In this document: positions 4,771-35,879 of the stretch, piece after piece | Position numbering within the stretch: the stretch's first letter is position 1 | Layout: each line of letters opens with the position of its first letter | IMG/VR virus record: IMGVR_UViG_3300027985_000453 | Coordinates: 1 to 43,408 of that record | DNA: 43,408 bases | Source: a virus | Direction: 5' to 3' (one strand) | Position numbers and translations under genes: made by a program | The notes under the pieces: model-generated | Databases searched by the model: none | What the model was told of the DNA's origin: nothing | Seen by the model: only the letters and a program-made list of their open reading frames with translations

Positions 4771-4783
4771 TTGGTTCTCCGCT

Positions 4784-4936
4784 TTACTCGATCACTCCCA
4801 ACTTTTTCAGCTTGGCAATTGATCGTTCAATTACTATTGCTTTTTGACCTTTGGCATAGTCTACGCCTCCATTTCTGTGATCTTTGATGAAAACCACCTG
4901 AACAGTTTTAGGTGCCTGCTGTTGCTCTTTGGTCAT
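4784..4936 (-). CDS. 50-aa phage structural-operon protein
   Basis: The ATG at 4936 is preceded by AAAGGAGATAACGC, a strong ribosome site. The product begins MTKEQQQAPKTVQVVFIKDH and ends in SIAKLKKLGVIE. Short proteins of this pattern (an Arg/His-Gly-x-x-Tyr-x-x-Gly turn followed by a helix ending in Leu-x-x-x-Gly-Val) are common in phage head and tail operons and have no assigned job. The gene is well supported by its start signal and by its exact fit between the tail tube and fibre genes. Function is unknown. Confidence 0.75.
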   Translation of the reverse strand: MTKEQQQAPKTVQVVFIKDHRNGGVDYAKGQKAIVIERSIAKLKKLGVIE

Positions 4937-4949
4937 GCGTTATCTCCTT

Positions 4950-5729: not shown

Positions 5730-5734
5730 GTCGT

Positions 5735-6196: not shown

Positions 6197-6510
6197 TGCC
6201 AATCGATAACTTCCATATAGATCATTCCGCGCCCATTATCAAATGGATGCCCGTTGATTCTATACTCCTTCGCGCCGCGTCGTATAGTGTCTCCATCTCC
6301 AGCGTTTGTTGGCGTGAATTCTGACTCTCGAATTCTGACTTCAATTGTACGTTGACTGGTTGGGACGGAGCCTACGTTTTCACTTGCACTGTTGACCAAG
6401 AACACCCCAGTTACTGGATATGCTACAACGCCAACCTCCACCAAAATAGACTCACCCATTTCGGCCATGATATCGTCATTCATCATTGATGCTGCGAGAT
6501 CAAACGACAC
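6193..6510 (-). CDS. Head-tail joining protein, gpFII-like position (105 aa)
   Basis: The start appears to be GTG 6510 with AGGA eight bases upstream; ATG codons at residues 9-10 are alternatives. The sequence is a small beta-rich protein (TSQRTIEVRIRESEFTP, GDTIRRGAKEYRINGHPFDN). It is like the head-tail connectors that occupy the lambda FII slot, which bridge head completion protein and tail. The length (105) is close to lambda FII (117). It overlaps the next gene by 4 bases. Confidence 0.6.
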   Translation of the reverse strand: MSFDLAASMMNDDIMAEMGESILVEVGVVAYPVTGVFLVNSASENVGSVPTSQRTIEVRIRESEFTPTNAGDGDTIRRGAKEYRINGHPFDNGRGMIYMEVIDWQ

Positions 6511-6541
6511 AATATAATCCTATTCCGTCACGCTTGGAATT

Positions 6542-6565
6542 GCCGGGCGACAATCGCCACCCGGC
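6542..6565. other. Hairpin in the gap between two head genes
   Basis: The non-coding gap 6511-6574 holds an inverted repeat: GCCGGG at 6542-6547 pairs with CCCGGC at 6560-6565. A competing inner stem, GGCGA with TCGCC, overlaps it. No U-tract follows on either strand, so it is not a standard terminator. It may act as an attenuator or mRNA stabiliser that lowers expression after the abundant capsid gene. That role is inference. Confidence 0.4.
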
Positions 6566-6574
6566 TACGTTACA

Positions 6575-6925
6575 TCACCCGGCAATGCTCTGATAGTACG
6601 CCCACGCGGCATCACGCTCGGCAGCGGTTACATCGCCGCCAGTGACCCGCTTGAGCGCCGACACCTCCGGCTTGCCGGCGTTCGTCCAATGCTCGTGATT
6701 GTCACCTTCAAGCGAATCGATGGCGTCAACCAGATCCGAAAGCCGATCATCAGAAATCCCGGCTTTTTGCTCGATCGCCTGAATATCCGAGACTCGCTCC
6801 GCTTGGCCATTGGAGACAAGACGTGCCGCGATGGCGTCAGGCACATCAACAACGCCAATCAGGTAGACCTCATTGCCGTCCCTGGCGAGGCGTTCGACCG
6901 CACACTTATGTACGCGGATCATCAT
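6575..6925 (-). CDS. Head completion protein in the gpFI position (116 aa)
   Basis: The gene starts in an ATGATGA overlap with the end of the capsid gene. The N-terminal half (MMIRVHKCAVERLARDGNEV) looks like a small beta domain. The C-terminus carries HWTNAGKPEVSALKRVTGG and then AAERDAAW. A motif with Trp-Thr-x-x-Gly-x-Pro recurs at the C-terminus of several phage head proteins in this slot. In lambda, gpFI sits here and aids DNA packaging. The match is by position and motif only. Confidence 0.5.
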   Translation of the reverse strand: MMIRVHKCAVERLARDGNEVYLIGVVDVPDAIAARLVSNGQAERVSDIQAIEQKAGISDDRLSDLVDAIDSLEGDNHEHWTNAGKPEVSALKRVTGGDVTAAERDAAWAYYQSIAG

Positions 6926-7959
6926 ACGGTCTTAACCTTGATGTACGCGGTTGCGTTCGGCCGGTATGGGACGATCAGAGGAGCGCACTGCATCAGCAGA
7001 TATCGGATCGCAGGGTCTTTTTCCAACCAGCTTTTCGAGAAATATTGCAGAGCCTGGAAATTGGCCTCCTCATCCTGGATCATGCCATAGGCGCGCACAC
7101 CCTCTACGGTAGCAGGGTCGCCCATGATCACCGAGTAATCAGGCATGATCTGCTGGGTATTGCCGGCCGCGTCGGTATAGGTCTCCTGATAAACCCAAAT
7201 GTCGAAGCTGCCAATACTTCCGACATAGCGCCCCTTGGCGTTGCCCTGACCGCGAGCAATCGGGCCGGTCTCGGCAGAGGAGACAGAGCCGCGGCGGGTC
7301 TCCAAAAGATCCTTGGTGGCCTGGTCCGCGCGGAACAGCCGCCAGGCCAGCGGGTCCATCACGACAGTGGTCGCATTGGCGCCGCTCTCGGTCTGGATCA
7401 GCCCGTGCCAGGTCTCCAGATCGTCCACCGGAACGACACCGGAATCGCCCCACTCTACAGTAGCCCCCTTGGTGATAGTCAGCCCAGCGGCGCGGCCGTA
7501 GTCAACCACTTTGGTTGGGTACTGATCCCCGGTAACGGTCACGGTGCCAGTGATGAGCGCCTGAGATGCCATGATCTCTTGGGTCCGAGTCAGCCGCTTC
7601 ATCTGATCTTCCATCGAGTACATTAGCGCGGCCTGCATACGCTGCATTCCGGTCAGATTGCCGCCGATGGACTCGCCGATGGAGCGGCGAAGCGGCCGAT
7701 CAGGATCGAAACGGCGCTTATCCTTAATGTAGGCAGGGCGGAAAAACTTCGTGGTAACGCCGTCTTCGGTCTGCACCTTTCCAGCCACCAGCGGAGAAAC
7801 GAACGGAGCAATCCGCGGCTTGGTGCCGTCGATATCGAAATGAATCTCCGCGCTCTCTTCGGTCTGGATCTCCGGGAAAAAGGTATCCAGAAGGAAGGAA
7901 GACGGAACGGTAATGTCCTGAACTACTCGGTTCAGAACTGCGGTATCGAAAATATCCAT
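6922..7959 (-). CDS. E: Major capsid protein, lambda E family (345 aa)
   Basis: The length and layout match the phage major capsid protein E family (lambda gpE is 341 residues). Visible landmarks are the N-terminal TVPSSFLLDTFFPEIQTEE, RPAYIKDKRRFDPDRPLRR near residue 75, WHGLIQTESGANATTVVMDP near residue 185, and KSWLEKDPAIRYLLMQCAPL near the end. It builds the icosahedral shell. It follows the decoration protein gene by 17 bases and overlaps the next gene. High confidence in the family; shell geometry cannot be read from sequence. Confidence 0.93.
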   Translation of the reverse strand: MDIFDTAVLNRVVQDITVPSSFLLDTFFPEIQTEESAEIHFDIDGTKPRIAPFVSPLVAGKVQTEDGVTTKFFRPAYIKDKRRFDPDRPLRRSIGESIGGNLTGMQRMQAALMYSMEDQMKRLTRTQEIMASQALITGTVTVTGDQYPTKVVDYGRAAGLTITKGATVEWGDSGVVPVDDLETWHGLIQTESGANATTVVMDPLAWRLFRADQATKDLLETRRGSVSSAETGPIARGQGNAKGRYVGSIGSFDIWVYQETYTDAAGNTQQIMPDYSVIMGDPATVEGVRAYGMIQDEEANFQALQYFSKSWLEKDPAIRYLLMQCAPLIVPYRPNATAYIKVKTV

Positions 7960-7976
7960 TCTGTGATGCCCTCAGA

Positions 7977-8333
7977 TTAAATGTAAATGCCCTTTTCCCG
8001 CAGCCCCTCGCGAATTGAGGCTGCGGTATGGGCGGTGCCGATGGTGAGCGCGGAAGCGTTGAACTGTCCGGACAGGTAGACCAGAATCTCCTTGTCGGCA
8101 GCGGTGGCGTCCACGGTTTCGACGGCGATGCAGTGCGGAACCTCGGAGCCGTCAACAGCAGCGGACAGCGATGCGGCCACCTTGCCGCTTGCGGTGATAA
8201 CCCCCAGCACCTCGCCGCGCACAACGGATTGCCCGGTAACGAGGGTCAACTTGGTAGAAACTACCGGGTAATCCCCGGAAAACAGGTTGTCAGGGCTGTA
8301 TGTGCCCTCGGTGGTAAATCCTTCAGCAGCCAT
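7977..8333 (-). CDS. D: Head decoration protein, lambda D family (118 aa)
   Basis: Typical of the HDPD family: TYSPDNLFSGDYPVVSTKLT, then GQSVVRGEVLGVITASGKVA, then a short C-terminal helix that ends at GLREKGIYI. Lambda gpD is 110 residues and forms trimers that cement the expanded capsid. Its place between the protease/scaffold gene and the major capsid gene is canonical. Confidence 0.93.
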   Translation of the reverse strand: MAAEGFTTEGTYSPDNLFSGDYPVVSTKLTLVTGQSVVRGEVLGVITASGKVAASLSAAVDGSEVPHCIAVETVDATAADKEILVYLSGQFNASALTIGTAHTAASIREGLREKGIYI

Positions 8334-8341
8334 ATTTCACC

Positions 8342-8713
8342 TCAGCTCTTGAACTTGAGAATGGACGCGGCCATAGCTGCGGCGTCGTTTTCGGCTTCAT
8401 CGGTGGCCATCTCGCCGCCGATACCCGGAGTGCCTACCGCCTTCATCGCTTCATGCAGCGGATTGGTGGCAGCATGCTTGAGATCCATGGCCGCAGAAGC
8501 AAGCACCTTGCCGGCCTGGTCTGCGGTCATGTCGGTATCGAGCGCGAGGCTCTTGGCGAGCGATTCGCGACCGATAGCGGCCTCGTGGTTGAGAATGGCG
8601 CCGATACGCCCACGCTCTGCGGTGCGAGCCTCGGCCTTGATCGAAGCAACGTCCACATTGTCAGTGGATTCGGCTTCATTATCCGGGCGATCCCCGGTAG
8701 CGTGATTCGACAT
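8342..8713 (-). CDS. Nu3: Nested scaffold protein (Nu3-like, in-frame internal start, 123 aa)
   Basis: An in-frame ATG at 8713 inside the protease gene is preceded by AGGAGAAAGCTGAA, a much better ribosome site than chance would give. Starting there yields MSNHATGDRPDNEAESTDNV and the helical C-terminal domain only. Lambda makes its scaffold Nu3 the same way from within gene C. Scaffold directs capsid assembly and is removed before DNA entry. Both products share a stop. Confidence 0.75.
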   Translation of the reverse strand: MSNHATGDRPDNEAESTDNVDVASIKAEARTAERGRIGAILNHEAAIGRESLAKSLALDTDMTADQAGKVLASAAMDLKHAATNPLHEAMKAVGTPGIGGEMATDEAENDAAAMAASILKFKS

Positions 8714-16885: not shown

Positions 16886-16940
16886 GTATTTACGCAACGC
16901 CTGAATAATATCAGGCGTCTGGGACTACTATCGTATGTTA
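16886..16940 (-). repeat. Array-end element, copy 1 (hairpin)
   Basis: Read on the minus strand, the stop codon region of the last cassette gene is followed by TAACATACGATAGTAGTC, a short variable stretch, the hairpin CGCCTGA-TATTAT-TCAGGCG (16917-16898), then TGCGTAAATAC. The same order is found at 35574-35639 after the last cassette of the plus-strand array. No U-tract follows the stem. It may be the fixed end of the site into which cassettes were inserted. Confidence 0.75.
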
Positions 16941-17138
16941 GATTTTCACCAGCCTTTCGTAGGCGGCCGGCTCTTCGTCTTGCAGCCACACAAGCACATT
17001 GATCAGCCTCTGTGCTGCTTTGTCCGGCTCCCGTTCGCCTCGCTCCCACTTGGTCCACGTCTGCCGGTGGACTCCGCACGCCTGGGCCATCTCCGCGATG
17101 GAGAGGCCCAGCTTTTGCCGGGCCTCTTGCGGTGTCAT
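16938..17138 (-). CDS. Small HTH regulator, Aca-like (66 aa)
   Basis: A compact helix-turn-helix protein starting MTPQEARQKLGLSIAEMAQA with the recognition region VHRQTWTKWERGEREPDKAA and ending AAYERLVKI. It overlaps the upstream small gene by 4 bases (ATGA). Its stop TAA lies in the inverse core site ATCTAAC (16943-16937) of the cassette. It is about 65 percent identical by eye to the HTH protein at 32919-33119. Both follow an unknown small gene and a promoter whose -10 overlaps a palindrome of nearly the same sequence. It probably represses its own operon. Confidence 0.85.
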   Translation of the reverse strand: MTPQEARQKLGLSIAEMAQACGVHRQTWTKWERGEREPDKAAQRLINVLVWLQDEEPAAYERLVKI

Positions 17139-17305
17139 TCGACTTCTACCGCCTCCAGCTCGCTCGGTTGCTCAAGCCGCTTTTCCATCTCTTGTTCTGA
17201 CTCATACCCTGCATCCTGTGCGCAGAGGTCGCGTGCCGCTTGCTCGCTGTCCGCCTCATAGATCCCAAACACCGTTCCGTTTGCGCTGACTTCGTACTTT
17301 GACAT
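17135..17305 (-). CDS. 56-aa acidic protein upstream of an Aca-like regulator; candidate anti-CRISPR slot
   Basis: The ATG at 17305 follows GAGGAAG. The protein starts MSKYEVSANGTVFGIYEADS and ends in an acidic tail (SELEAVEVE), with a net negative charge. The N-terminal part (VSANGTVFGIYEADSEQAA then RDLCAQDAGYES) reads like a small alpha/beta fold. It is the first gene of a two-gene cassette under a palindrome-controlled promoter. No family is recognised. The anti-CRISPR idea rests wholly on this architecture. Confidence 0.8.
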   Translation of the reverse strand: MSKYEVSANGTVFGIYEADSEQAARDLCAQDAGYESEQEMEKRLEQPSELEAVEVE

Positions 17306-17350
17306 TTTTACTTCCTCTCTGGGGGTCGGCGGTTGCCTTCCTTGATTCTT

Positions 17351-17378
17351 AGTATATACCCACTGGGTATGATTGCAA
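17351..17378 (-). promoter_or_regulatory. Cassette promoter with palindromic operator
   Basis: On the minus strand TTGCAA (17378-17373), 16-base spacer, TATACT (17356-17351). A perfect 15-bp palindrome, ATACCCA-N-TGGGTAT, occupies 17370-17356 and touches the -10. The leader after it (ATCAAGGAAGGCA, then CCGACC) is nearly the same as that of the cassette promoter at 32556. The adjacent HTH protein is the obvious ligand. Confidence 0.8.
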
Positions 17379-17405: not shown

Positions 17406-17467
17406 ATCTAACACCAGTTTCCAGCGGACGCGCCAAATGCGCGCGCCGCTGAAACTCGCCGTTAGGC
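17406..17467 (-). other. attC: Integron attC site (62 bp), minus-strand array
   Basis: On the minus strand it begins with the inverse core GCCTAAC, which contains the stop codon of the preceding gene, and ends with the core GTTAGAT. The inside folds into an imperfect hairpin (AGTTTC with GAAACT, then GCGG with CCGC and GCGC with GCGC). The next cassette begins TTAGAT and ends in ATCTAAC, its exact complement, as in integron cassettes. Confidence 0.8.
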
Positions 17468-17716
17468 GCTCAAGGCCAAAGCGGCTTTGTGCTCAATTAC
17501 ACGATGGTCTTTGTCGCGCATCATCTGTTTTCCGTCCGCCAAGTTAATAATCACCACGCCGCTCTTTTCAGGTGAGTCAGCAACCATGTAGAATGCGTCC
17601 TCTTTTAAAGCCTCATCGAAAGAGAGGTGGGCAAAGCGAAAAACCGCTCCACAGGCTAGGTTGCCAAGGCTTACGGTAGGCTCTTGGTTATTAGGCTGTG
17701 CTTTTGTCAGTTTCAT
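17462..17716 (-). CDS. 84-aa cassette protein, small beta-rich fold
   Basis: The start is ATG 17716 (MKLTKAQPNNQEPTVSLGNL); a TTG four codons upstream is also open. Features are GNLACGAVFRFAH, AFYMVADSPEKSGVVIINLA, DGKQMMRDKDHRVIEHK. This resembles a widespread small phage/cassette family with the order Leu-x-x-Gly-x-x-Phe-Arg-Phe, a strand with Tyr-Met-Val, a strand with Val-Val-x-x-Asn-Leu, and a Gly turn. No function is known to me. It fills the first cassette of the minus array; its stop is in the attC inverse core. Confidence 0.8.
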   Translation of the reverse strand: MKLTKAQPNNQEPTVSLGNLACGAVFRFAHLSFDEALKEDAFYMVADSPEKSGVVIINLADGKQMMRDKDHRVIEHKAALALSA

Positions 17717-17738
17717 CGATTTATCCAAGCGCCGTAGC

Positions 17739-17745
17739 GCATAAC
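17739..17745 (-). other. Core site at the 5' end of the minus-strand cassette array
   Basis: GTTATGC on the minus strand (17745-17739). The first cassette would begin TTATGC here; its inverse core at the other end (GCCTAAC) differs from the expected complement by one base. Upstream, 17746-17810 contains two short inverted repeats (GGAG with CTCC, and GTGAT with ATCAC) but no complete attC or attI that I can define. Confidence 0.5.
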
Positions 17746-17810
17746 AATTAATTAAACTGGAGCCGGTAGACTCCGCGTTTTTAAATCCGGATGTGATAAT
17801 GGAACCATCA

Positions 17811-27912: not shown

Positions 27913-28349
27913 ACATCGCGAAGATCGCACGAGAGATCCAGGCCGAAACAATGTCCGAAGCGCTTGGGAGAATGAAGATGGATGTGCCTTACGAAGTGCA
28001 TAGGATGGTTTCCTACTACGGGTTGACCGGTCGCACGGTCAAAAGTATGGCAAAAGAACTGCGGATAGATGAAGCGCGAGTGCGCTCGGCGGTTGATGAG
28101 CTGATGGAGCAAGGCAAGATACAGCGCACTCAGCGTAAGGACGCGGAGACCTATCGACTTTTCATTGTGATGCCTGCGAACAAGGAGGTTTCCGCGGCTC
28201 CGGCTGGAGCACTTACAGCCGCTCCTGATCGGTCTTATTCGCCGCCTGGCGGTGGCGTGAATAAGGTCGCTCGGCGGATGATTGAGATGAAGCTGGAGGC
28301 CAAGGCGCTGGGCCTGAGCGTCGAACAGCTATATGGGGAGGTGGTGTGA
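27909..28349 (+). CDS. Winged-helix protein of the recombination operon (146 aa)
   Basis: After a helical start (MNIAKIAREIQAETMSEALG) comes a winged helix-turn-helix: TGRTVKSMAKELRIDEARVR, SAVDELMEQGKIQRTQRKDA and ETYRLFIV. A Pro/Ala-rich linker leads to a C-terminal helix pair (KVARRMIEMKLEAKALGLSV). It could be an early regulator or a DNA-binding helper. It overlaps the upstream gene by 4 bases. Confidence 0.7.
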   Translation: MNIAKIAREIQAETMSEALGRMKMDVPYEVHRMVSYYGLTGRTVKSMAKELRIDEARVRSAVDELMEQGKIQRTQRKDAETYRLFIVMPANKEVSAAPAGALTAAPDRSYSPPGGGVNKVARRMIEMKLEAKALGLSVEQLYGEVV

Positions 28350-28389
28350 TCGCCGCTACCAAACTTTGGATGACGACGGAGAAACCGAG

Positions 28390-29127
28390 ATGAATGTACT
28401 GACCACCCTGACCAACAAACTGGCGGCAAAGCTCGACATCGGAGATGGCCGCGAGCTGGTCGACACCCTCAAGGCTACGGCCTTCAAGGGGCAGGTATCC
28501 GACGCCCAGATGACCGCTCTGCTGGTGGTCGCTACGCAGTACGGACTGAACCCCTGGACCAAGGAGATCTACGCCTTCCCGGACAAGAACAACGGCATCG
28601 TGCCGGTGGTGGGGGTGGACGGCTGGAGCCGGATTATCAACGGCCATCCGCAGTTCGATGGCATTGAGTTTGTGGAGGATGGTGAGTCCTGCACCTGCAT
28701 CATCCACCGCAAGGATCGGTCCCACCCGACCAAGGTGACGGAGTACATGGGGGAGTGTAAGCGGGCAAACGTCGGCCCCTGGCAGTCACACCCACGGCGG
28801 ATGCTGCGCCACAAGGCGACGATCCAGTGTGCGCGGCTCGCCTTCGGCTATGTCGGGATCTTTGAGCCGGACGAGGCAGAGCGGATCGTTGAGATCGATA
28901 TGGGGGCGGCCCAGCTCGTCGACCGCCCCACCACCACGGCGGAGTTGCAGGAGTATCCCGCGGAACAGTTCGCCGCCAGTTGGCCGAAATGGGAGGCGGC
29001 GATGGCGTCCGGCAATCTCGACGCCAGGCGCATCATCGACACCGTCGGCAGCAAGTTCCGGATGACGGATGAGCAGATCGGCCGACTGTATGATCTGGAA
29101 GAGTCCCTGAAGGAGGGCGCGGAATGA
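28390..29127 (+). CDS. bet: Recombination annealing protein, RecT/Bet family (245 aa)
   Basis: The start is ATG 28390 (MNVLTTLTNKLAAKLDIGDG). Typical family sequence follows: SDAQMTALLVVATQYGLNPW, TKEIYAFPDKNNGIVPVVGV, DGWSRIINGHPQFDGIEF, and HKATIQCARLAFGYVGIFEP. Lambda Bet is 261 residues. It anneals single strands made by the neighbouring exonuclease, and the two genes overlap by 4 bases. Confidence 0.95.
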   Translation: MNVLTTLTNKLAAKLDIGDGRELVDTLKATAFKGQVSDAQMTALLVVATQYGLNPWTKEIYAFPDKNNGIVPVVGVDGWSRIINGHPQFDGIEFVEDGESCTCIIHRKDRSHPTKVTEYMGECKRANVGPWQSHPRRMLRHKATIQCARLAFGYVGIFEPDEAERIVEIDMGAAQLVDRPTTTAELQEYPAEQFAASWPKWEAAMASGNLDARRIIDTVGSKFRMTDEQIGRLYDLEESLKEGAE

Positions 29128-30938
29128 GCATGAGGCTCCACAACCTGGTACAGGGCGGCGCGGAGTGGCACGCGGCGCGCGTAGCCGCCGACTTCACCGC
29201 CAGTGAGGCCCCGATCGTCATGGGCGCCTCGAAGAAGCTGACCCGGGCGGCGCTGATCCGGATGCGCGCCACCGGCGGTGAACAGGAGTTCAGCCAGTGG
29301 CTGATCGATAACGTCTTTGCCCGCGGGCACGAGGTGGAGGCGTTGGCGCGACCGATCATCGAGGGGCGCATCGGAGAGGATCTCTATCCGGTGACCGGTG
29401 AGCGGGAGGTGGAGGGCCTACGGCTGCTTGCCTCCTTCGACGGGCTGACGATGCTGTACGACCATTCCTGGGAGTGCAAGCAGTGGAACGAAGCGAAGGC
29501 GTCGGAGGTGCGAGTCGGAAGAGTTCCGGATGAGGACTACTGGCAGGTGGTGCATCAGCTGATTGTAAGCTGTGCAGAAGTCGCGACCTATACGGTCTCC
29601 GACGGCACCGAGGCGGGGACGATCAGCACGCAGGTGGTGTTGGACCCGGAGCACCGGTACCAGCTGATCGCTGCTTACAAGCAGGCCAAAAGCGATCTGC
29701 TCGAATATGTCCACCAGCAGATCCGGCCGGAAGCGGTCGCGGCGCCGCAGGAGGCGTTGCCGGCGGTCACCGTGCAGGTGAGCGGGCAGATCGCCATCAC
29801 CGACAACCTGCCCGCCTTCGGTGAGGCGTTGACGGCCTACGTCGAGCGCCTCAACCTCAAGCCCGAGACGGACCAGGACTTTGCCGATCTCGATGCGGCC
29901 TGCAAATCCCTCAAGCGGGCGGAGGAGGCGCTAATTTCTGCCGAGACCAACGCCCTGGCCCAGACCTCCAGTATCGAGGAGATGCGCCGGGCGGTGGCGA
30001 CCTACCGGGATCTCGCCCGCAACACCCGTCTCCAGGCGGAGAAGGTCGTCAAGGCGGAGAAGGAGAACCGGCGGGCGGCGATCCACGCCAAGGCGGTCGC
30101 GGTGGTGCGCGGGCACTACGACAAGCTCAATGCCACGCTTGGCGGGTTCGCCCTGCCCTTCCCGCAGGATACAGGCCAACGCATCGCCGCCGCGATGAAG
30201 GGCAAGAAGACGATCCTGAGTCTGCAGGATGCCGCGGACGGCGCGGTGGCCGAGGCCAGGATCGCGGCCAACGATCTGTTCGACGGTGTGCGCGCCTCTC
30301 TGGCGAAGCTGGCGGAGGTCCCGGTGGAGTACCGCCACCTGTTCCACGACCGCGCCGCCCTGGCCATGGAGCCGGTGGTCCACGTCGAGATGACCATCAA
30401 GGCACGCATCGCCGACTACAAGGAAGCCGAGGCGAAGCGGCTGGAGGCGGAGCGGCAGCGCATCCGGGAGGAAGAGGAGCGCAAGGCGCGCGAGGCGATG
30501 GAGGTCGAGCAGCGGCGGCTGGAGCAACGGAAGCGCCATGAGCAGGAAGAGGCGGACCGGCGCGCGGCCTGGAAGTGTGACGGGAACCATGGTGGAGCAC
30601 CATGCGATGACCCGGAGTGCTGGGCGCGTTCAGTTAATCAGGTATCAGGGCAGGGCCGCGAGAATCAAGATGGAGAGGCGGAAGTTCCTCGCATGGTGGA
30701 AGAGCTGATGGTAGACAAAAGCGAACCTGCCACCCTGAAGCTGGGGGACATCCGCGACCGGCTCGGCTTCGCCCTGCCGGCGGCGTTCATCGAGGAGACC
30801 CTCGCCATCCAACCGGCCGCCAAGGAGCGCTCCGCCGTGCTCTTCCTGGAAAGCCAGTGGCCGGCGATCTGCCGGGCGTTGGTGGCGCATGTCCTGGAGT
30901 GTGAGGGTACGGCGGTGGAGCGGAGGGAGGCGGTATAA
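29124..30938 (+). CDS. YqaJ/lambda-Exo-like exonuclease with long C-terminal extension (604 aa)
   Basis: Residues 1-205 are a YqaJ recombinase nuclease: QGGAEWHAARVAADFTASEA, FARGHEVEALARPIIEGRIG, LLASFDGLTMLYDHSWECKQ (Asp and Glu-x-Lys catalytic residues) and DYWQVVHQL. It digests 5' strands for Bet. Residues ~225-500 are coiled coil resembling the DUF1351 region seen in some phage recombination proteins. Then follow a His/Cys cluster (CDGNHGGAPCDDPECWAR) and a small C-terminal domain (LKLGDIRDRLGFALPAAFIE). Lambda Exo is only 226 residues, so this is a multidomain fusion. Confidence 0.88.
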   Translation: MSMRLHNLVQGGAEWHAARVAADFTASEAPIVMGASKKLTRAALIRMRATGGEQEFSQWLIDNVFARGHEVEALARPIIEGRIGEDLYPVTGEREVEGLRLLASFDGLTMLYDHSWECKQWNEAKASEVRVGRVPDEDYWQVVHQLIVSCAEVATYTVSDGTEAGTISTQVVLDPEHRYQLIAAYKQAKSDLLEYVHQQIRPEAVAAPQEALPAVTVQVSGQIAITDNLPAFGEALTAYVERLNLKPETDQDFADLDAACKSLKRAEEALISAETNALAQTSSIEEMRRAVATYRDLARNTRLQAEKVVKAEKENRRAAIHAKAVAVVRGHYDKLNATLGGFALPFPQDTGQRIAAAMKGKKTILSLQDAADGAVAEARIAANDLFDGVRASLAKLAEVPVEYRHLFHDRAALAMEPVVHVEMTIKARIADYKEAEAKRLEAERQRIREEEERKAREAMEVEQRRLEQRKRHEQEEADRRAAWKCDGNHGGAPCDDPECWARSVNQVSGQGRENQDGEAEVPRMVEELMVDKSEPATLKLGDIRDRLGFALPAAFIEETLAIQPAAKERSAVLFLESQWPAICRALVAHVLECEGTAVERREAV

Positions 30939-30978
30939 GCAAGCATACGCCTGGGCCGTTGGTCCGCTGCAAACTTTT

Positions 30979-31028
30979 GTTTGGCGTCTCTCTTGACAGA
31001 TGTCGCAAATGATCCTAATCTTAGGATC
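30979..31028 (+). promoter_or_regulatory. 5' boundary of the plus-strand cassette array and promoter with palindromic operator
   Basis: GTTTGGC at 30979-30985 is the exact complement of the inverse core GCCAAAC at 31923, so the first cassette starts here. Just inside it, TTGACA (30993-30998), 17-base spacer and TAATCT (31016-31021) form a strong promoter. The palindrome GATCCTAA-TC-TTAGGATC (31011-31028) covers the -10. No complete attC or attI can be drawn upstream in 30939-30978. Confidence 0.8.
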
Positions 31029-31074
31029 AAGAGGGAGGCCATAGGGGCCACCAGATCAGGCTTAGGAGCCGACC

Positions 31075-31371
31075 ATGACTACCAACCGCACCATCAACCC
31101 CGCCTGGCTGGCCTACAACAACCTCTACAACGAGGGTGGCGAGGGCTACAACCCGCACAACAAGTACATCGGCCTGCACAAAGCGCCTGTCGGATGGACA
31201 CGAGAAACCACCATCCGTTGCCGCGCAGCCTGGAATGCTTGGCTCAAGACGCTTCCTGAGGGGGCAATGCTGGGATCCAAAGACACAGCAGTCGGCTATA
31301 AGGTGGCCGGATTTCCGGCCGGTAGTGGGTTTGGCGACCTCAAGAAGGCTATCGCCTACTACGGCCTATAA
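31075..31371 (+). CDS. 98-aa protein upstream of an HTH regulator; candidate anti-CRISPR slot
   Basis: The ATG at 31075 follows AGGAG. Sequence begins MTTNRTINPAWLAYNNLYNE, contains HNKYIGLHKAPVGWTRETTI, and ends DLKKAIAYYGL. It is rich in Tyr, Asn and Trp. It is the first gene of cassette 1, under its own operator-controlled promoter, and is followed by a DNA-binding protein. No family recognised. Confidence 0.8.
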   Translation: MTTNRTINPAWLAYNNLYNEGGEGYNPHNKYIGLHKAPVGWTRETTIRCRAAWNAWLKTLPEGAMLGSKDTAVGYKVAGFPAGSGFGDLKKAIAYYGL

Positions 31372-31409
31372 CACACAACGGCCCGCGAATTTTCCTGGAG
31401 ACTACCGAC

Positions 31410-31919
31410 ATGACTACCCAACGCCACCCTATGCGCACTCTGGGCATGATCGCCCGGGCCGTCTACGGCATAGGGCAAGCCATACCGCAGTGCGTCGTAG
31501 ACCTGCTGCCCGTATCCCCTCTGGCCGCTCTAGGTCTGATGCAGCAGCGTAATGAGGTACTGGCGGATGACGTGGGAGAGCTGATTGCTGGCCTCCCTGC
31601 TGACCCGGGCCAATACGCCGGGGACAGTTTTGGCATGGGGCAATTTTGGGTTGGGTACTACCGCTATCTGACCGCGATGGATCTATCCGAGACGCATGGG
31701 CCGGATGCGCTGCGGGCGTGCGGTGAGGCATTGTACGGGGATCGGTGGCAATCTGACCTGTCCCGTGCGCTCGGACTATCTGACCCGCGCCGTATGCGCG
31801 CCTGGATGGCGAGAGAGCGCCCGATCCCTGCCGGGGTCTGGTGCGACCTGGCCGCGCTGCTGAGGGCTAGGGAGATTAGCGTGGCCAGCGTACTACGGGA
31901 CATCACCGGCGGCGGGTGA
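31410..31919 (+). CDS. HTH regulator, Aca-like, with N-terminal extension (169 aa)
   Basis: GGAGACTACCGAC precedes the ATG. The C-terminal third is a helix-turn-helix: RWQSDLSRALGLSDPRRMRA, WMARERPIPAGVWCDLAALL, and then REISVASVLRDI. The Trp-x-x-x-Arg-Pro-Ile-Pro pattern is common in small phage and Aca-type repressors. The N-terminal 100 residues (PMRTLGMIARAVYGIGQAIP, ...GMGQFWVGYYRYL) have no known fold. It probably reads the 18-bp palindrome in its promoter. The gene ends just before the first attC. Confidence 0.78.
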   Translation: MTTQRHPMRTLGMIARAVYGIGQAIPQCVVDLLPVSPLAALGLMQQRNEVLADDVGELIAGLPADPGQYAGDSFGMGQFWVGYYRYLTAMDLSETHGPDALRACGEALYGDRWQSDLSRALGLSDPRRMRAWMARERPIPAGVWCDLAALLRAREISVASVLRDITGGG

Positions 31920-31922
31920 GAC

Positions 31923-31986
31923 GCCAAACGCCGCAAATCACCGGACCGCGCGACAGCGCGGGTACGAGTGAATTTGCTGGTTAGGT
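31923..31986 (+). other. attC: Integron attC site 1 (64 bp)
   Basis: From inverse core GCCAAAC (31923-31929) to core GTTAGGT (31980-31986). The arms GCAAATCAC and GTGAATTTGC pair with one extra unpaired T, the extrahelical base that sets strand choice. The loop carries GCGCG/CGCGG. It is a weaker match at the inverse core than the others. Confidence 0.72.
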
Positions 31987-32006
31987 GCCAATTGCGAAAA
32001 AAGATG

Positions 32007-32036
32007 TTGACGTTAGCGCAACTTTGCTGTGCTTAT
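32007..32036 (+). promoter_or_regulatory. Probable promoter of cassette 2
   Basis: TTGACG at 32007-32012, then an 18-base spacer and GCTTAT. The -10 is less certain than in the other cassettes. A short inverted repeat GCAA-CT-TTGC lies in the spacer. The promoter fits the pattern of a self-contained cassette but has no long palindrome. Confidence 0.45.
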
Positions 32037-32081
32037 CTTCAAGGGAGGCGGGCATGCCGCCGACCGAACTGGAGAGACAAC

Positions 32082-32315
32082 ATGAACACCAGCTACATCA
32101 TCGAACAAGGCACCTACAATCGCGGCAACTGGGAGCCTGTACCGGAGTGTGAGTTTGAAACCCTGGCGGAAGCCCAGAAGGCTATGGCGGATGTTGAAAC
32201 GAATCTCGGTTGGCGTGATCTGCGGATCAGCCGCGAGACCGTCGATAGCAACGTTGTGACTGGGCGCGATGTTGTTGAATACGGACTAGAATCCGATGAA
32301 GAAGAAGATCAGTAA
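32082..32315 (+). CDS. 77-aa acidic cassette protein
   Basis: The ATG at 32082 follows GGAGAGACAAC. Starts MNTSYIIEQGTYNRGNWEPV, with ECEFETLAEAQKAMADVETN and a very acidic tail (YGLESDEEEDQ). A high negative charge and size under 100 residues recall DNA-mimic or anti-CRISPR proteins but prove nothing. It overlaps the following small basic gene by 20 bases. Confidence 0.78.
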   Translation: MNTSYIIEQGTYNRGNWEPVPECEFETLAEAQKAMADVETNLGWRDLRISRETVDSNVVTGRDVVEYGLESDEEEDQ

Positions 32316-32481
32316 AAAATCGGCTGGACCAAAGGACGGGGCGGCAAGGGTCGCGGCCTTAGAGCAGCGGCATAGGGACGCGGGAGAGGTGCAGCGCAAG
32401 CGGTGGGCCCACCCGGACGACTGGCCCAAGATCGATGCGCTGATTTCAGAGCTACGGGCGGAACGGAAGCAAGGAACCTAA
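32296..32481 (+). CDS. Small basic DNA-binding-like protein (61 aa)
   Basis: Begins MKKKISKKSAGPKDGAARVA and ends RWAHPDDWPKIDALISELRA-ERKQGT. The end has the look of a ribbon-helix-helix unit (a short strand, then His-Pro-Asp-Asp-Trp and a helix), a fold known in some small regulators. The gene overlaps the acidic gene, and its TAA lies in the attC inverse core. It may be the regulator of cassette 2. Confidence 0.68.
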   Translation: MKKKISKKSAGPKDGAARVAALEQRHRDAGEVQRKRWAHPDDWPKIDALISELRAERKQGT

Positions 32482-32538
32482 CGTGAAGCCTGAGCCGGCC
32501 TGCAGATAGGCCGGGTCCGCTCTAGGCGCGGGTTAGAT
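32476..32538 (+). other. attC: Integron attC site 2 (63 bp)
   Basis: ACCTAAC (32476-32482) to GTTAGAT (32532-32538), both fitting the consensus. The inverse core is the exact complement of the core at the start of its own cassette (GTTAGGT, 31980). GCCTGAGC pairs with GCTCTAGGC, leaving one extra base; the loop stem is GGCCT/AGGCC. Confidence 0.9.
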
Positions 32539-32555
32539 TTTTTTTCACTGACCCA

Positions 32556-32583
32556 TTGCAAATAGATACGCATTGCGTATACT
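32556..32583 (+). promoter_or_regulatory. Cassette 3 promoter with palindromic operator
   Basis: TTGCAA (32556-32561), 16-base spacer, TATACT (32578-32583). A perfect 15-bp palindrome, ATACGCA-N-TGCGTAT, covers 32566-32580. Elements, spacing, palindrome position and the leader ATCAAGGAAGGCA match the promoter at 17351-17378 on the other strand. Confidence 0.85.
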
Positions 32584-32628
32584 ACAAATCAAGGAAGGCA
32601 CAACGCCGACCACTACGAGGAAGCCAAA

Positions 32629-32922
32629 ATGAGCCGCAAAATCAACACAAAATTCACATACAACGTAAGCTCTTGGTATTCTGTAGGAGGAAGGTGCGAT
32701 GCAGTGCTATTTTTCGAAGGGGTGAAAGTCGGAACGTTCAAAGCAGACTCAGCGAGAATGACTCCGGCGGTCAACCACGAACTAAACCTATTCTGGGACG
32801 AGGATGCTGGTGAGCTAGTGCTGCAGAAACTAAATAATAATTTTTCTGAAATGAGCAGTTTGGAAGTCGCCGGGTTCGTTGCGGAGAAAATTTTGAAAAA
32901 ATGCGCAATGGTGCAGGAATGA
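32629..32922 (+). CDS. 97-aa protein upstream of an Aca-like regulator; candidate anti-CRISPR slot
   Basis: The ATG at 32629 follows GAGGAAG. Begins MSRKINTKFTYNVSSWYSVG and continues through CDAVLFFEGVKVGTFKADSA and NLFWDEDAGELVLQKLNNNF to a helical end (AGFVAEKILKKC). The base composition is more AT-rich than its neighbours, a sign of a separate origin. It is unrelated to the 56-aa protein in the same slot of the minus array, although promoter, leader and regulator are homologous. Confidence 0.83.
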   Translation: MSRKINTKFTYNVSSWYSVGGRCDAVLFFEGVKVGTFKADSARMTPAVNHELNLFWDEDAGELVLQKLNNNFSEMSSLEVAGFVAEKILKKCAMVQE

Positions 32923-33119
32923 CAGCTTCAGAGGCCCGGCAAAAGCTGGGCCTCTCCATTGCGGAGATGGTCCGGCTGATGGATGTACCTCGCTCATCCT
33001 GGAATAGCTGGGAGCGCGGTGAGCGCGAGCCGGATAGTGCGGCGCGGCGGCTGATGGCGGTGCTGGTGTGGCTGCACGACGTGGAACCCGCCGCCTACGA
33101 GAGGCTGCGAAAAATCTAA
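32919..33119 (+). CDS. Small HTH regulator, Aca-like (66 aa)
   Basis: Starts MTASEARQKLGLSIAEMVRL, with VPRSSWNSWERGEREPDSAA and an end AAYERLRKI. It is a clear homologue of the protein at 16938-17138. Differences in the recognition helix (VPRSSW against VHRQTW) go with the different base in the two palindromes (ATACGCA against ATACCCA). It overlaps the upstream gene by 4 bases. The stop lies in attC. Confidence 0.87.
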   Translation: MTASEARQKLGLSIAEMVRLMDVPRSSWNSWERGEREPDSAARRLMAVLVWLHDVEPAAYERLRKI

Positions 33120-33216
33120 CGCCAATGCTGTGCGGCCCGTGGCCGCACCATGAAATAATTGAATCACGCGGCGGACCCGCTTGCGGCCTTGGGTCCGAAC
33201 TAGCCGCACGTTAGGC
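33114..33216 (+). other. attC: Integron attC site 3 (103 bp)
   Basis: ATCTAAC (33114-33120) to GTTAGGC (33210-33216). The inverse core is the exact complement of the cassette's own start (GTTAGAT, 32532). Arms GTGCGGC and GCCGCAC pair. The inside is closely similar to attC site 8 at 35135, so the two cassettes came from related arrays. Confidence 0.92.
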
Positions 33217-33230
33217 CCTGGAGCACGAAA

Positions 33231-33431
33231 ATGCGCGAAACTCTGAATTGGACAGTGGTGGTGGTGGAAGGGGACGACGGCGAGGAGGCCGAGGTCAACA
33301 TGGATGATCTGCTGGGCAATTTCGATGAGGAGCTGTCGCAATGCCTGCTCATTGGGCGCGCCGTCCGAGACGCCCTGATGCGCGATGATAAAGACGGGGC
33401 GACCGCAATCGTGCGCTGCTACTCGCAATGA
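33231..33431 (+). CDS. 66-aa acidic cassette protein
   Basis: Begins MRETLNWTVVVVEGDDGEEA and continues EVNMDDLLGNFDEELSQCLL. The N-terminal strand pair and the Asp/Glu content are notable. The ATG is 15 bases after the core site and has only a weak ribosome site (GGAGCACGAAA). No family recognised. Single-gene cassette. Confidence 0.72.
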   Translation: MRETLNWTVVVVEGDDGEEAEVNMDDLLGNFDEELSQCLLIGRAVRDALMRDDKDGATAIVRCYSQ

Positions 33432-33438
33432 CCGCGTG

Positions 33439-33562
33439 GCCTAACGCCCGCCTTGAGCCGCCGGCCAACAAGAAACGAACAGATAGGAACGTAACGTGAC
33501 GAACGAACAGAACCAAAACAGCGCCGCAGAAGGCCGGTCTGATATCCAAGGCGTTGTTATGC
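33439..33562 (+). other. attC: Integron attC site 4 (124 bp)
   Basis: GCCTAAC (33439-33445) to GTTATGC (33556-33562). The inverse core is the exact complement of the cassette start (GTTAGGC, 33210). Arms CGCCTTG and CAAGGCG pair, with GCCGGCC/GGCCGG inside. The long size and GTTATGC end recall sites of chromosomal integrons. Confidence 0.92.
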
Positions 33563-33606
33563 CTTAGTTCTTGCAAGGCGTGTGCCACGATGGCGCGGCA
33601 ATTCTC

Positions 33607-33804
33607 ATGGATGGCAAGCCGCTTACGATTGAGGAGATACTGGACAAGCTGAGGAGAGGGGCCGACGCGGAGCGTATTGTCGGCGAGGTGTGGGACATGT
33701 TCTACGGCCAAAACATGCAGGTTGCGAACTGGCATCTTAACGGAGACATCGAGCCAATGGACAACTTCTTCGAGAACAATGGCTGGGTGATTGGTGAGGC
33801 GTAA
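33607..33804 (+). CDS. 65-aa cassette protein
   Basis: I take ATG 33607 (MDGKPLTIEEILDKLRRGAD), with GTG 33580 and TTG 33571 as longer alternatives; none has a good ribosome site. Continues AERIVGEVWDMFYGQNMQVA and NWHLNGDIEPMDNFFENNGW. It looks like a helical domain followed by a Trp-rich part. Stop at 33804 is inside the attC inverse core. Function unknown. Confidence 0.65.
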   Translation: MDGKPLTIEEILDKLRRGADAERIVGEVWDMFYGQNMQVANWHLNGDIEPMDNFFENNGWVIGEA

Positions 33805-33903
33805 CGATGCCGCTCAGCCACAGGGAAAAGCGGCTAACGAGCGCTGATTAGAAAACAGAAACCGCGCCGCTTTTGCCTGTCGGCTGTAGCGGCCTTGTTA
33901 GAC
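33799..33903 (+). other. attC: Integron attC site 5 (105 bp)
   Basis: GCGTAAC (33799-33805, one base off the complement of its cassette start GTTATGC) to GTTAGAC (33897-33903). The long arms pair almost perfectly: GCCGCT-CAGCC-ACAGG and AAAAGCGGC with GCCGCTTTT and CCTGTCGGCTGTAGCGGC, leaving single extra bases. Confidence 0.88.
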
Positions 33904-33919
33904 GCCGAGGTAACCGAAG

Positions 33920-34150
33920 ATGACGACCAAGAATGTGACGATTGAATATGCAAACCGCCACCCCGGCGACAAAGCCTACCGCTACAACCACGACGGTTTC
34001 GAGGTCGGCAGCAAGTGGCTTGACCTGGATGAAGGTGAGGTGGTGACCATCGTCGGCCCTGGAATGGCAGGGATGCCGGAGTGCGAGTGCAGCGACGGAC
34101 GCGGAACCTATCTGGCATACCCGCAGCGACTGACGCAGGACGGCATCTAA
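33920..34150 (+). CDS. 76-aa cassette protein, small beta-rich fold
   Basis: Begins MTTKNVTIEYANRHPGDKAY and contains GFEVGSKWLDLDEGEVVTIV and a Cys pair (ECECSDGRGTYLAYP). Short strands and Gly turns suggest an SH3-like barrel. GAGG lies nine bases before the ATG. Single-gene cassette; function unknown. Confidence 0.72.
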   Translation: MTTKNVTIEYANRHPGDKAYRYNHDGFEVGSKWLDLDEGEVVTIVGPGMAGMPECECSDGRGTYLAYPQRLTQDGI

Positions 34151-34248
34151 CGGTCATGCTCAGGCGACCGCTACCGCGCGAACTGAGCCATGAATTAACC
34201 CACAAACGCGACACGCGGTAGCGGGTCGCTTGGAGCATGTTGTTATGC
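34145..34248 (+). other. attC: Integron attC site 6 (104 bp)
   Basis: ATCTAAC (34145-34151, one base off the complement of its cassette start GTTAGAC) to GTTATGC (34242-34248). Arms CATGCTC and GAGCATG pair, then GGCGACC with GGTCGCT and GCTACCGCG with CGCGGTAGC. One of the best hairpins of the array. Confidence 0.92.
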
Positions 34249-34559
34249 GCCTGATGCTCGGATCAGTTGAATTTTCTGATTGGAAAACGGCATTGGTTGC
34301 TCTACGCATGAGCAAGCACGGCTCTGGCGTGCGGCGAGACGATGCTCATCACGGTGAGGTGTCTGCGGTGCAATTGTGGCGCGGGCATCTGCGCGTGATA
34401 GCGATAGCCGGCGAACCGGAGGTATCAATGAATTTCGTCGCCGGGTGGAACCTGCGTGGCGTGCGCGTTGTAAGCGATGCGTTGATCGCTGGCCTGCTGG
34501 CGCATAACGGTGGAGCTGTGCCGGCCCGCGGTAGCGGGTCGGCACGAGCGAATGGTTAG
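34245..34559 (+). CDS. 104-aa cassette protein whose end overlaps its attC
   Basis: I take ATG 34245 (MRLMLGSVEFSDWKTALVAL), within the core site of the previous attC; a TTG five codons earlier is also open. Contains VSAVQLWRGHLRVIAIAGEP and VSMNFVAGWNLRGVRVVSDA. The last 19 codons are read through the attC hairpin (VPARGSGSARANG), so the C-terminus is attC-encoded. Function unknown. Confidence 0.65.
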   Translation: MRLMLGSVEFSDWKTALVALRMSKHGSGVRRDDAHHGEVSAVQLWRGHLRVIAIAGEPEVSMNFVAGWNLRGVRVVSDALIAGLLAHNGGAVPARGSGSARANG

Positions 34560-34561
34560 AG
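34502..34561 (+). other. attC: Integron attC site 7 (60 bp)
   Basis: GCATAAC (34502-34508) is the exact complement of the cassette start (GTTATGC, 34242). Ends GTTAGAG (34555-34561), whose last base departs from consensus. GCT-GTGCCG and CCCGC pair with GCGGG and CGGCAC-GAGC. Short and compact. Confidence 0.88.
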
Positions 34562-34783
34562 CGCGGATGATGAGGACTTTAGTTTGAGACAGAACAACTC
34601 CCACAGACCGGGATGCATGCGGGCAATGCCAGCCTCCCAGTCCTGCCACGTGCGGCGCGTGGAGTACACCAGCGCGGCGGCGGCAGGCTGCGAGAGCCCG
34701 GCCGCCTCGCGGGCGTCACGGATCTGCTCAGGGGTTGGGTTTGCAGCCGGGTTGCCCCGGCTGCGGTTTGGGTGGTTAGGCAT
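34556..34783 (-). CDS. Small HTH regulator, Aca-like (75 aa), in an inverted cassette
   Basis: Starts MPNHPNRSRGNPAANPTPEQ and has the helix-turn-helix IRDAREAAGLSQPAAAALVY, STRRTWQDWEAGIARMHPGL. It overlaps the upstream gene by 8 bases. The Trp-x-x-Trp-Glu pattern after the recognition helix is shared with the other two small regulators. The genes in this cassette run against the attC orientation and have their own promoter. The stop overlaps the core site. Confidence 0.82.
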   Translation of the reverse strand: MPNHPNRSRGNPAANPTPEQIRDAREAAGLSQPAAAALVYSTRRTWQDWEAGIARMHPGLWELFCLKLKSSSSAL

Positions 34784-35006
34784 GCTTGCGAGCGATGGCC
34801 TTCAGGTCATCGGCGCTCATGGTGAGCAGAGACTCCTCGCTGCATACCTCGTCCCATGCGTAATGAACGGCATCAGCGATTTTGTCGGTATCGTCACCGG
34901 CAATGGCAATGATCTCATCAACGATGACGTTGAACTGACTGGCGGCGCGCTCTTCCTGTCCATCCCACTCGCCAACGGAATCGGTAGTTGCGTAGAAATT
35001 TGTCAT
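34776..35006 (-). CDS. 76-aa acidic protein upstream of an Aca-like regulator; candidate anti-CRISPR slot
   Basis: The ATG at 35006 follows GGAGAAATACA. Begins MTNFYATTDSVGEWDGQEER, continues AASQFNVIVDEIIAIAGDDT and DKIADAVHYAWDEVCSEESL, ends DDLKAIARKHA. It is acidic and helical. It is the first gene of the inverted two-gene cassette under a palindrome-containing promoter. No family recognised. Confidence 0.8.
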   Translation of the reverse strand: MTNFYATTDSVGEWDGQEERAASQFNVIVDEIIAIAGDDTDKIADAVHYAWDEVCSEESLLTMSADDLKAIARKHA

Positions 35007-35064
35007 TGTATTTCTCCAGCCCCTGAATCCCCCGAGGCGCGGGTTGTGGCGTCTGACCACGGTT

Positions 35065-35095
35065 ATATATTGGCACGGATTCCGTGCTTTTGCAA
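35065..35095 (-). promoter_or_regulatory. Cassette 8 promoter with palindromic operator
   Basis: On the minus strand TTGCAA (35095-35090), then an 18-base spacer and AATATA; TATATA lies two bases further. A perfect 15-bp palindrome, GCACGGA-N-TCCGTGC, fills the spacer (35087-35073). The design equals the promoters at 17351 and 32556, but the palindrome sequence is different, as expected for a different regulator. Confidence 0.78.
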
Positions 35096-35134
35096 CACCC
35101 AAAGCAAAAATATTTTCCGGGCGCTGAACGAGCG

Positions 35135-35238
35135 CTCTAACGACAAGGCTGTGCGGCCCCAGGCCGCAGACGACTGAACCAACAATTACGCGGCGGACCA
35201 GCTTGCGGCCTGGGGTCCGAACGAGCCGCAAGTTAGGC
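35135..35238 (+). other. attC: Integron attC site 8 (104 bp)
   Basis: CTCTAAC (35135-35141) is the exact complement of the cassette start (GTTAGAG, 34555), which shows that the non-consensus base of that core belongs to this cassette. Ends GTTAGGC (35232-35238). The inside is closely similar to attC site 3 (TGTGCGGCCC, ACGCGGCGGACC, GGGTCCGAAC, AGCCGCA). Confidence 0.93.
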
Positions 35239-35258
35239 TGAACACTGAGGAACGAAAC

Positions 35259-35540
35259 GTGAAAGAAGCACTGCAATTTGCATTACAGATCGCCGGTCAA
35301 GCGGAAGAGCTGAAGCCTGCGGCCCGCCAGATAGTGGATGCAATCAAGCTCTTCGGACCTGAGCTCGCAGAGCTTATCGGCGGAGCAAGTGACTACCTGA
35401 TCGACCGGAGGGCAGCGGCGGTGAAGCGGCTGGAGGAGAAGCACGGATTCACGCGTGAGGAGGCGATCATTCTCACTCTCGACGTGCATGCTCGAATCGA
35501 TCGCCAACTGCGTGAGAACAACCGAAAGAAGGCGAAGTAA
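35259..35540 (+). CDS. 93-aa cassette protein
   Basis: The start is GTG 35259 with GAGG upstream. Begins MKEALQFALQIAGQAEELKP and continues KLFGPELAELIGGASDYLID and a Lys/Arg/Glu-rich helical end (RLEEKHGFTREEAIILTLDV). All helical, no membrane segment. Last cassette of the plus array. Confidence 0.75.
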   Translation: MKEALQFALQIAGQAEELKPAARQIVDAIKLFGPELAELIGGASDYLIDRRAAAVKRLEEKHGFTREEAIILTLDVHARIDRQLRENNRKKAK

Positions 35541-35577
35541 CCGTCAAGGCTGCACGGCTGGCCCCGTGCAGCCTAAC
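35541..35577 (+). other. End of the last cassette: hairpin and inverse core site
   Basis: A perfect 10-bp stem, GGCTGCACGG with CCGTGCAGCC, is followed directly by GCCTAAC (35571-35577), the exact complement of the last cassette's start (GTTAGGC, 35232). No GTTRRRY core follows within 100 bases, so the final attC is incomplete or merged with the array-end element. Confidence 0.7.
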
Positions 35578-35639
35578 ATACGATAGTAGTCGCCACACAG
35601 GCGCCTCCGCCTGATATTATTCAGGCGCTGCGGAAATAC
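35574..35639 (+). repeat. Array-end element, copy 2 (hairpin)
   Basis: TAACATACGATAGTAGTC, a 16-base stretch absent from copy 1, the hairpin CGCCTGA-TATTAT-TCAGGCG (35608-35627), then TGCGGAAATAC. Copy 1 is at 16886-16940 on the other strand. The hairpin is identical in both. Confidence 0.8.
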
Positions 35640-35660
35640 GCCTAGCGTATCAACAGGTTG

Positions 35661-35879
35661 CTAAATTTGTTGCGCGAAAGCACGGCGCGGCACCAACCGC
35701 TCCGCGATTTCATCCACGGTCTCTCTGTAGTAGACCTGTAGCTGCCGGAGATCGCGGTGCCCGGATATCCTGGCCAACGTCAGAACGTCGACCCGACGCG
35801 ACAACCTGGTCGGCGCCTCGGTTGACAGAGGCACCACTCGGGCGCTGCTATGCGTGGGGCTCTGCGACCTCCACCCTCA
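35661..35879 (-). pseudogene. Remnant of a tyrosine recombinase (phage integrase), internally deleted
   Basis: The minus frame ending at TAG 35661 reads LSRRVDVLTLARISGHRDLR followed by QLQVYYRETVDEIAERL. This is the C-terminal end of a tyrosine integrase with the GHRD box and the nucleophile Tyr in VYYRET. Directly before it stands SARVVPLSTEAPTR, which belongs about 50 residues upstream in intact relatives, so the segment with the catalytic His-x-x-Arg box is deleted. A stop in frame (35879-35877) closes the fragment. It is not an integron IntI, whose end differs. Confidence 0.8.

Follow-up and report, generated by a model that had tools for sequence, protein, structure and literature searches.

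Integrase-less attI-type docking sites and mirror-image gene cassettes in a tailed phage genome

Results

attC sites of array A

The virus record IMGVR_UViG_3300027985_000453, analysed here over its entire 43,408 bases (the window), is a tailed phage genome that carries two arrays of integron-like gene cassettes, termed arrays A and B, each beginning at an attI-type site. A search of the whole 43,408-base record with the integron integrase family NF011946 gave no IntI family match, in agreement with the original prediction, made from the letters alone, of a nine-cassette array without an intI gene at the position of array A. The attC sites were scored using a covariance model, R1, which was built from only 28 short attC sites of bacterial intI loci; these training sites came from 80 collected bacterial loci with an integron integrase. 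Open reading frames (ORFs) come from rule-based calling rather than from a trained gene finder. From its attI end, array A has the following features.

35573–35626, minus strand: attI-A, the dock at the 5′ (attI) end, with the inverted repeat GCCTGAATAATATCAGGC at 35609–35626
35259–35540, plus strand: gene of cassette 9 (attI-proximal), 93 aa, inverted relative to attC (ORF; no family match)
35135–35238, minus strand: attC8 (R1 18.1 bits)
34556–35018, minus strand: cassette 8, a helix-turn-helix (HTH) protein (34556–34783; HTH_31, 2e-7) and a 75-aa ORF (34776–35003), in the attC direction
34502–34561, minus strand: attC7, classical layout with extrahelical base (R1 51.9 bits, E 1.1e-9)
34236–34559, plus strand: cassette 7 gene, inverted (ORF)
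34145–34248, minus strand: attC6 (R1 18.5 bits; long bottom-strand hairpin)
33920–34150, plus strand: cassette 6 gene, inverted (ORF; TAA stop codon inside the attC core)
33799–33903, minus strand: attC5 (R1 19.3 bits)
33571–33804, plus strand: cassette 5 gene, inverted (ORF)
33439–33562, minus strand: attC4, the weakest (R1 11.6 bits; own-end match)
33231–33431, plus strand: cassette 4 gene, inverted (ORF)
33114–33216, minus strand: attC3 (R1 13.3 bits)
32629–33119, plus strand: cassette 3, a 97-aa protein and an HTH protein (32919–33119), inverted
32476–32538, minus strand: attC2 (R1 26.1 bits)
32082–32481, plus strand: cassette 2, two small genes, inverted (ORFs)
31923–31986, minus strand: attC1 (R1 16.3 bits on the minus strand, 11.7 on the plus strand)
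31075–31919, plus strand: cassette 1 (distal), genes of 98 and 169 aa, inverted (ORFs)
30930–30985, minus strand: degenerate attC at the distal end of the last cassette, retaining R″ GCCAAAC and L″ GTTTGCAGCGGACC but with no canonical R′; no R1 match

R1 matched all eight predicted sites between the small genes (31923 to 35238), confirming that they are real, with the best score on the minus strand in each case (51.9, 26.1, 19.3, 18.5, 18.1, 16.3, 13.3, and 11.6 bits). The weakest sites (33439, 33114, and 31923) were individually non-significant (E 0.06–0.6) and are supported by their position in the series and by their folds. As a background, 44 whole phage records chosen by kinship only yielded six R1 matches in four records (E ≤ 0.01), far below what was seen for the window. 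In bacterial intI loci, 137 of 138 R1 matches lay on the array strand, and R1 therefore reports polarity. The window sites possess the R″, L″ with an extrahelical base, L′, and R′ elements of attC and a folded bottom strand. With eight attC sites on one strand (minus) and no associated integrase, array A is a cluster of attC sites lacking integron integrases (CALIN).

Each cassette had also been predicted to carry an inverse core complementary to its own 5′ end. This was borne out: the complementarity was exact in seven of nine cassettes, with one mismatch each in cassettes 5 and 6 (61 of 63 bases matching; permutation p ~2.5e-5), in a test that is blind to strand. Two further elements of the prediction held only in part. 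The site ends do not all conform strictly to RYYYAAC and GTTRRRY, the exceptions being GCCAAAC, GCGTAAC, GCATAAC, CTCTAAC, GTTATGC, and GTTAGAG, and the attC that closes the leftmost cassette is degenerate.

Known attC sites have an extra unpaired base in L″. In the window, the extra base lies on the minus-strand 5′ arm, attC7 reading CTCTAAC-CATTC-GCTCGTGCC...GGCACAGC-TCCACC-GTTATGC; array A therefore has its start at 35577, on the right, and its cassette genes mostly run against it. The original prediction had missed this minus-strand polarity, the start at the right end (~35.58 kb) with its attI-type site, the second dock and array at 16.9 kb, and the inversion of the genes relative to attC. 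A plus-strand reading of array A with attI at the left was rejected because of the attC asymmetry and the duplicated dock. Other approaches to the attC sites were less useful: an Rfam search of the window gave no attC family match and one chance match only, a sequence-only attC profile was too weak, and an initial finder that required R′ and R″ of a single site to pair overlooked most of the true sites, since R′ is part of the following cassette.

attI-type docks and the second array

After its inverted repeat, attI-A reads GACTACTATCGTAT/GTTAG at 35573–35591 (here and below, a slash within a site marks the crossover), with the crossover at the G at 35577 and a core of /GTTAGGC. Exact copies of the dock sequence occurred in the window only here and at 16.9 kb (0 in 100 shuffles). 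The phage docking site postulated in the original prediction is thus present as an attI-type site, and in two copies, with 77.8% identity between docks A and B over 63 bp. Array B comprises two cassettes behind attI-B, at 16.9–17.75 kb.

16899–16941, plus strand: attI-B, the second dock copy (GCCTGAATAATATCAGGC ... GACTACTATCGTAT/GTTAG)
16938–17305, minus strand: cassette 1, an HTH gene (16938–17138) and a 56-aa gene, inverted relative to attC
17406–17467, plus strand: attC (R1 43.2 bits, E 8e-8)
17465–17728, minus strand: cassette 2 gene, inverted

The second cassette of array B has an own-end match, GTTAGGCGC / GCGCATAAC at 17738–17746, with one mismatch, and its distal attC is degenerate. 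The HTH gene of array B is 71% identical to that of cassette 3 in array A.

Bacterial attI sites, as seen in the extracted array starts, commonly read ...GTCTACTTNAC/GTTRRRY. A CTA preceding the crossover by 7–10 bases was present in 21 of 34 bacterial attI sites and 26 of 48 phage array starts but in none of 416 internal attC junctions (Fisher p ~1e-25 for starts versus internal junctions), and a second phage sample gave 11 of 29 array starts against 0 of 144. Both window docks have CTA at −9 to −7. An upstream inverted repeat was likewise over-represented at bacterial and phage array starts. On sequence grounds, the window docks are attI-type sites that bear the bacterial motif at the array start. 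The phage docks resemble attI1 of class 1 integrons in having a hairpin, then CTA..., then G/TTRRRY, and GGGCAGTCGCCCTAAAACAAAG/TTAGGC is present in the locus L102 and others; unlike attI1, the phage docks adjoin no intI and apparently no Pc promoter and are otherwise unrelated to it in sequence. An exact search for the window attI in IMG/VR found none.

These features bear on the possibility that a host IntI simply inserted cassettes off target, at non-specific phage DNA sites of the attG type, with no evolved dock. IntI can use secondary sites, and one phage cassette (L068:4665–5110) lies inside an HNH-endonuclease gene whose two halves are joined in frame when the cassette is removed, which points to a single insertion outside any typical attI. 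Sites of the attG type are named in PMC12901181. As in attG insertion, IntI would act in trans on a phage replicon that has no intI of its own; the target in the phage docks, however, is an attI-type site with a conserved motif that is reused. Most phage arrays start at the bacterial attI motif with an upstream inverted repeat, and the dock sequence is present twice in the window phage, so that off-target insertion is an improbable explanation for the arrays.

Cassette genes of the window

Genes oppose attC in 10 of 11 window cassettes (arrays A and B), cassette 8 being the sole exception. The cargo includes three HTH proteins, the remaining proteins having no assigned function; the cassette 1 ORF at 31410–31919 corresponds to phrog_12690 (1.6e-37). 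PADLOC gave no defence match among the window cassettes, and one distal cassette gene had no match when compared with plasmids. At the attC-side start of several cassettes, we noticed a sigma-70-like promoter, a palindromic operator-like stretch, and a leader resembling AAGGAAGGC...GCCGACC (31031–31052, 32041–32070, and 32593–32616; 17330–17355 on the minus strand). As a signal, the leader motif RAGGRAGGC...GCCGACC was dismissed, being no rarer than chance at 3 mismatches in a simple pattern count.

Gene polarity in phage and bacterial arrays

The orientation of cassette genes was then compared between phage and bacterial arrays, counting only ORFs with a ribosome site. The phage sample consisted of IMG/VR loci matching a generic attC pattern (80 among the matches listed, plus four kin loci), in which R1 found about 275 attC sites; a second sample was drawn with a separate attC pattern, independent of the first, so that both were chosen by attC pattern. 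Genes ran in the same and the opposite direction to attC in 42 and 12 cases in bacterial intI loci but in 5 and 126 cases in the listed phage contigs (p = 4e-25); by contig, the same:opposite ratio was 18:0 (one tie) in bacteria versus 2:44 in phages. In the second phage sample, 0 and 69 cassettes had genes in the same and opposite direction, respectively, and 27 of 27 contigs were inverted. With both samples pooled, polarity was inverted in 195 of 200 scored cassettes, and about 70 phage contigs besides the window showed gene inversion. The start codon lay a median of 33 nt from attC in phage cassettes versus 30 nt from the 5′ (free) end of the cassette in bacteria. In H101, a phage isolated on Pseudoalteromonas marina, the annotated genes also oppose its attC sites, which have weak R1 scores (18 bits).

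Among 49 array-bearing records, none had an IntI match above the cut-off, and five had weak partial matches only. Terminase (two families) was found in 24 of the 49 and portal in one more; many of these records are therefore certainly phages, the others resting on the IMG/VR classification. In 23 of 30 cases, the genes that flank the distal array end point toward the array.

A few loci stood apart. L186 and L207, the sole two phage contigs of the first sample with genes in the attC direction by contig, are possibly captured bacterial arrays. Matches to the attC pattern also occurred in very large virus contigs of 157–345 kb (L317, L320, L361, and L366). The phage record L079 (Virus Rctr41k, KX853513) has at 4680–8545 its own IntI-like integrase with attC-like sites downstream and methyltransferase genes.

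The polarity is the chief difficulty for the view that phage arrays are captured bacterial CALINs, that is, chromosomal integron pieces including attI that were taken up by illegitimate recombination with the cassettes as passengers. The attC and attI sites are of bacterial type, as this view expects; a phage attI (L188) is 85% identical over 59 bp to a Burkholderiaceae attI, and phage examples including captured Vibrio integrons have been published (PMC9892861). Captured pieces would, however, retain the bacterial gene polarity, which is reversed in almost all scored phage cassettes and in all but one cassette of the window. Neither the two diverged docks in a single phage (78% over 63 bp) nor switch points lying exactly at attI accord with it, and capture is already disfavored and unlikely.

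Cassette exchange and cargo in other phages

Pairs of related phage contigs showed where arrays diverge. L190 and L192 share 93.8% identity over the 675 bp that lead to the attI core and have different first cassettes beyond it, and the same pattern was seen for L185/L192 (85.6%) and L206/L219 (96%). A fixed cassette order in distant phages would have spoken against exchange; instead, the arrays of related phages diverge at the docking point and are different beyond it. Cassettes were also common to different phage arrays (L177/L212, 92.5%; L165/L229, 92.9%; L185/L195, 90.5%; L177/L232, 86%). One cassette of phage contig L182 is 91% identical to the first cassette beside intI in the Dechloromonas genome L097, and in both places the gene is inverted. 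Matches of L229 to Iodobacter and Pectobacterium phages were discarded as simple repeats.

Eight of 66 phage cassette proteins had matches to DNA methyltransferases, two to PAPS reductase, and one each to Gp157, RNA ligase, and Acb2/Tad1. The Acb2/Tad1-type (anti-CBASS/anti-Thoeris) gene lies at L232:9003–9281 on the minus strand, in an inverted cassette bounded by attC.

Genome context of the arrays

The window encodes a lambda-type large terminase, portal, head protease, major head protein, and tail protein; these capsid, portal, and terminase genes identify it as a tailed phage genome. A DnaC-like loader and recombination proteins are encoded as well, with array A placed downstream of recE.

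28333–30938, plus strand: RecT-like and RecE-like recombination genes (PHROGs/Pfam), reading into the distal end of array A

The terminase is 42–45% identical to those of named phages (Pseudomonas phage Y8, HK225, N15), and the window DNA had no match among named phages. Adjoining attI-A, at 35650–35850 on the minus strand, is a phage-type tyrosine recombinase remnant comprising a C-terminal part that ends in ...LTLARISGHRDLRQLQVYYRETVDEIAERLVPRRAFAQQI and a stop codon; the window phage may be descended from a temperate phage.

This remnant beside array A could be taken to suggest that a phage-encoded or other recombinase, rather than IntI, moves the cassettes and that the attI/attC resemblance is ancestral. 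The phage records lack intI, and their polarity is unlike that of bacterial arrays, as such an enzyme might predict. Yet most of the protein is missing from the remnant, which is of an ordinary phage type, the sites keep the features recognized by IntI, and one cassette is common to an intI-linked array. Of the explanations considered, a non-IntI recombinase is the least credible, and we regard it as very unlikely.

Discussion

Our results suggest that the integron integrase of a host probably loads cassettes in trans at attI docks of integrase-less phages, which keep and trade a mirror-image cassette pool. A phage with two attI-type docks and no integron integrase would infect or lysogenize an integron-bearing host, whose IntI would recombine circular cassettes into the phage attI exactly at G/TT and could also excise and shuffle the phage cassettes. 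If host IntI acts in trans on the phage attI, the attC and attI sites, the missing intI, the precise switch points, and the common cassettes would all be expected.

The docks lie just where blocks of phage genes with a common direction end downstream, and reading of the cassette genes would start on the phage side and proceed toward attI, opposite to the attC direction. A new cassette would thereby extend a phage transcription unit at its 3′ end and not follow a Pc promoter. In the window, the direction of recE leads into array A, and that of minus-strand genes into array B; since genes face attI in nearly all of its cassettes, a Pc at attI would read antisense. The inversion seems to fit transcription from the phage side. 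We infer that IntI catalyzes the exchange in trans, that transcription comes from the phage side, and that selection for expression caused the inversion. Dock-bearing phages would keep and trade the inverted pool, in which some cassettes carry counter-defense-type genes.

Several observations weigh against this model. The CTA motif is absent from some phage arrays, and TJE1, re-examined together with H101, is not inverted. The window attI was not found in 369 sampled bacterial genomes of one class; allowing two mismatches gave six matches there, with no nearby attC and consistent with chance. Both window arrays end in a degenerate attC. Judging by eye, promoters may be present within cassettes 1–3 and array B themselves, so that run-in transcription may not be needed. 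Only two relatives of the window lineage were found, moderately close and both without attC, and the cassette turnover that had been proposed was seen in other related phages and not in the lineage of the window phage itself.

Clusters of attC sites without intI in phages have been described previously by Qi et al. 2023, who reported phage CALINs and integrons, and attC sites of virulent phages, as well as those of H101, were reported to be active with IntI1 (PMC9892861). Those CALINs resemble the class described here in lacking intI and in their methyltransferase cassettes; the present arrays differ in their number of cassettes (up to nine, with a second array besides), in starting at attI-type docks in the absence of intI, and in the systematic inversion of genes relative to attC. 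None of these features is reported in the main text of PMC9892861. The window shares with sedentary chromosomal integrons the attI motif, attC architecture, own-end complementarity, and small genes of no known function, but it lacks intI, its genes face attI, and it is located in a tailed phage. A search of the open PMC literature, with preprints and subscription papers outside it, returned no description of a phage attI lacking intI and none of inverted cassettes in phages. Phage attI docks that have no integrase and hold mirror-image cassettes appear to be new.

Beyond the window, it is rather likely that a widespread class of integrase-less phages with attI docks at operon ends swaps a separate mirror-image pool, including many counter-defense genes, by means of host IntI and also leaves cassettes in host integrons. 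If this is true, the bacterial integron would be an exchange machine shared with phages, and an enzyme-less phage with an attI could sample counter-defense genes, one cassette per step. It would also suggest a possible origin of the inverted, silent cassettes in bacterial integrons, and gene direction relative to attC would provide a simple sequence test that separates phage-type from bacterial cassettes. The long-standing question of who carries cassettes across lineages would then become directly testable.

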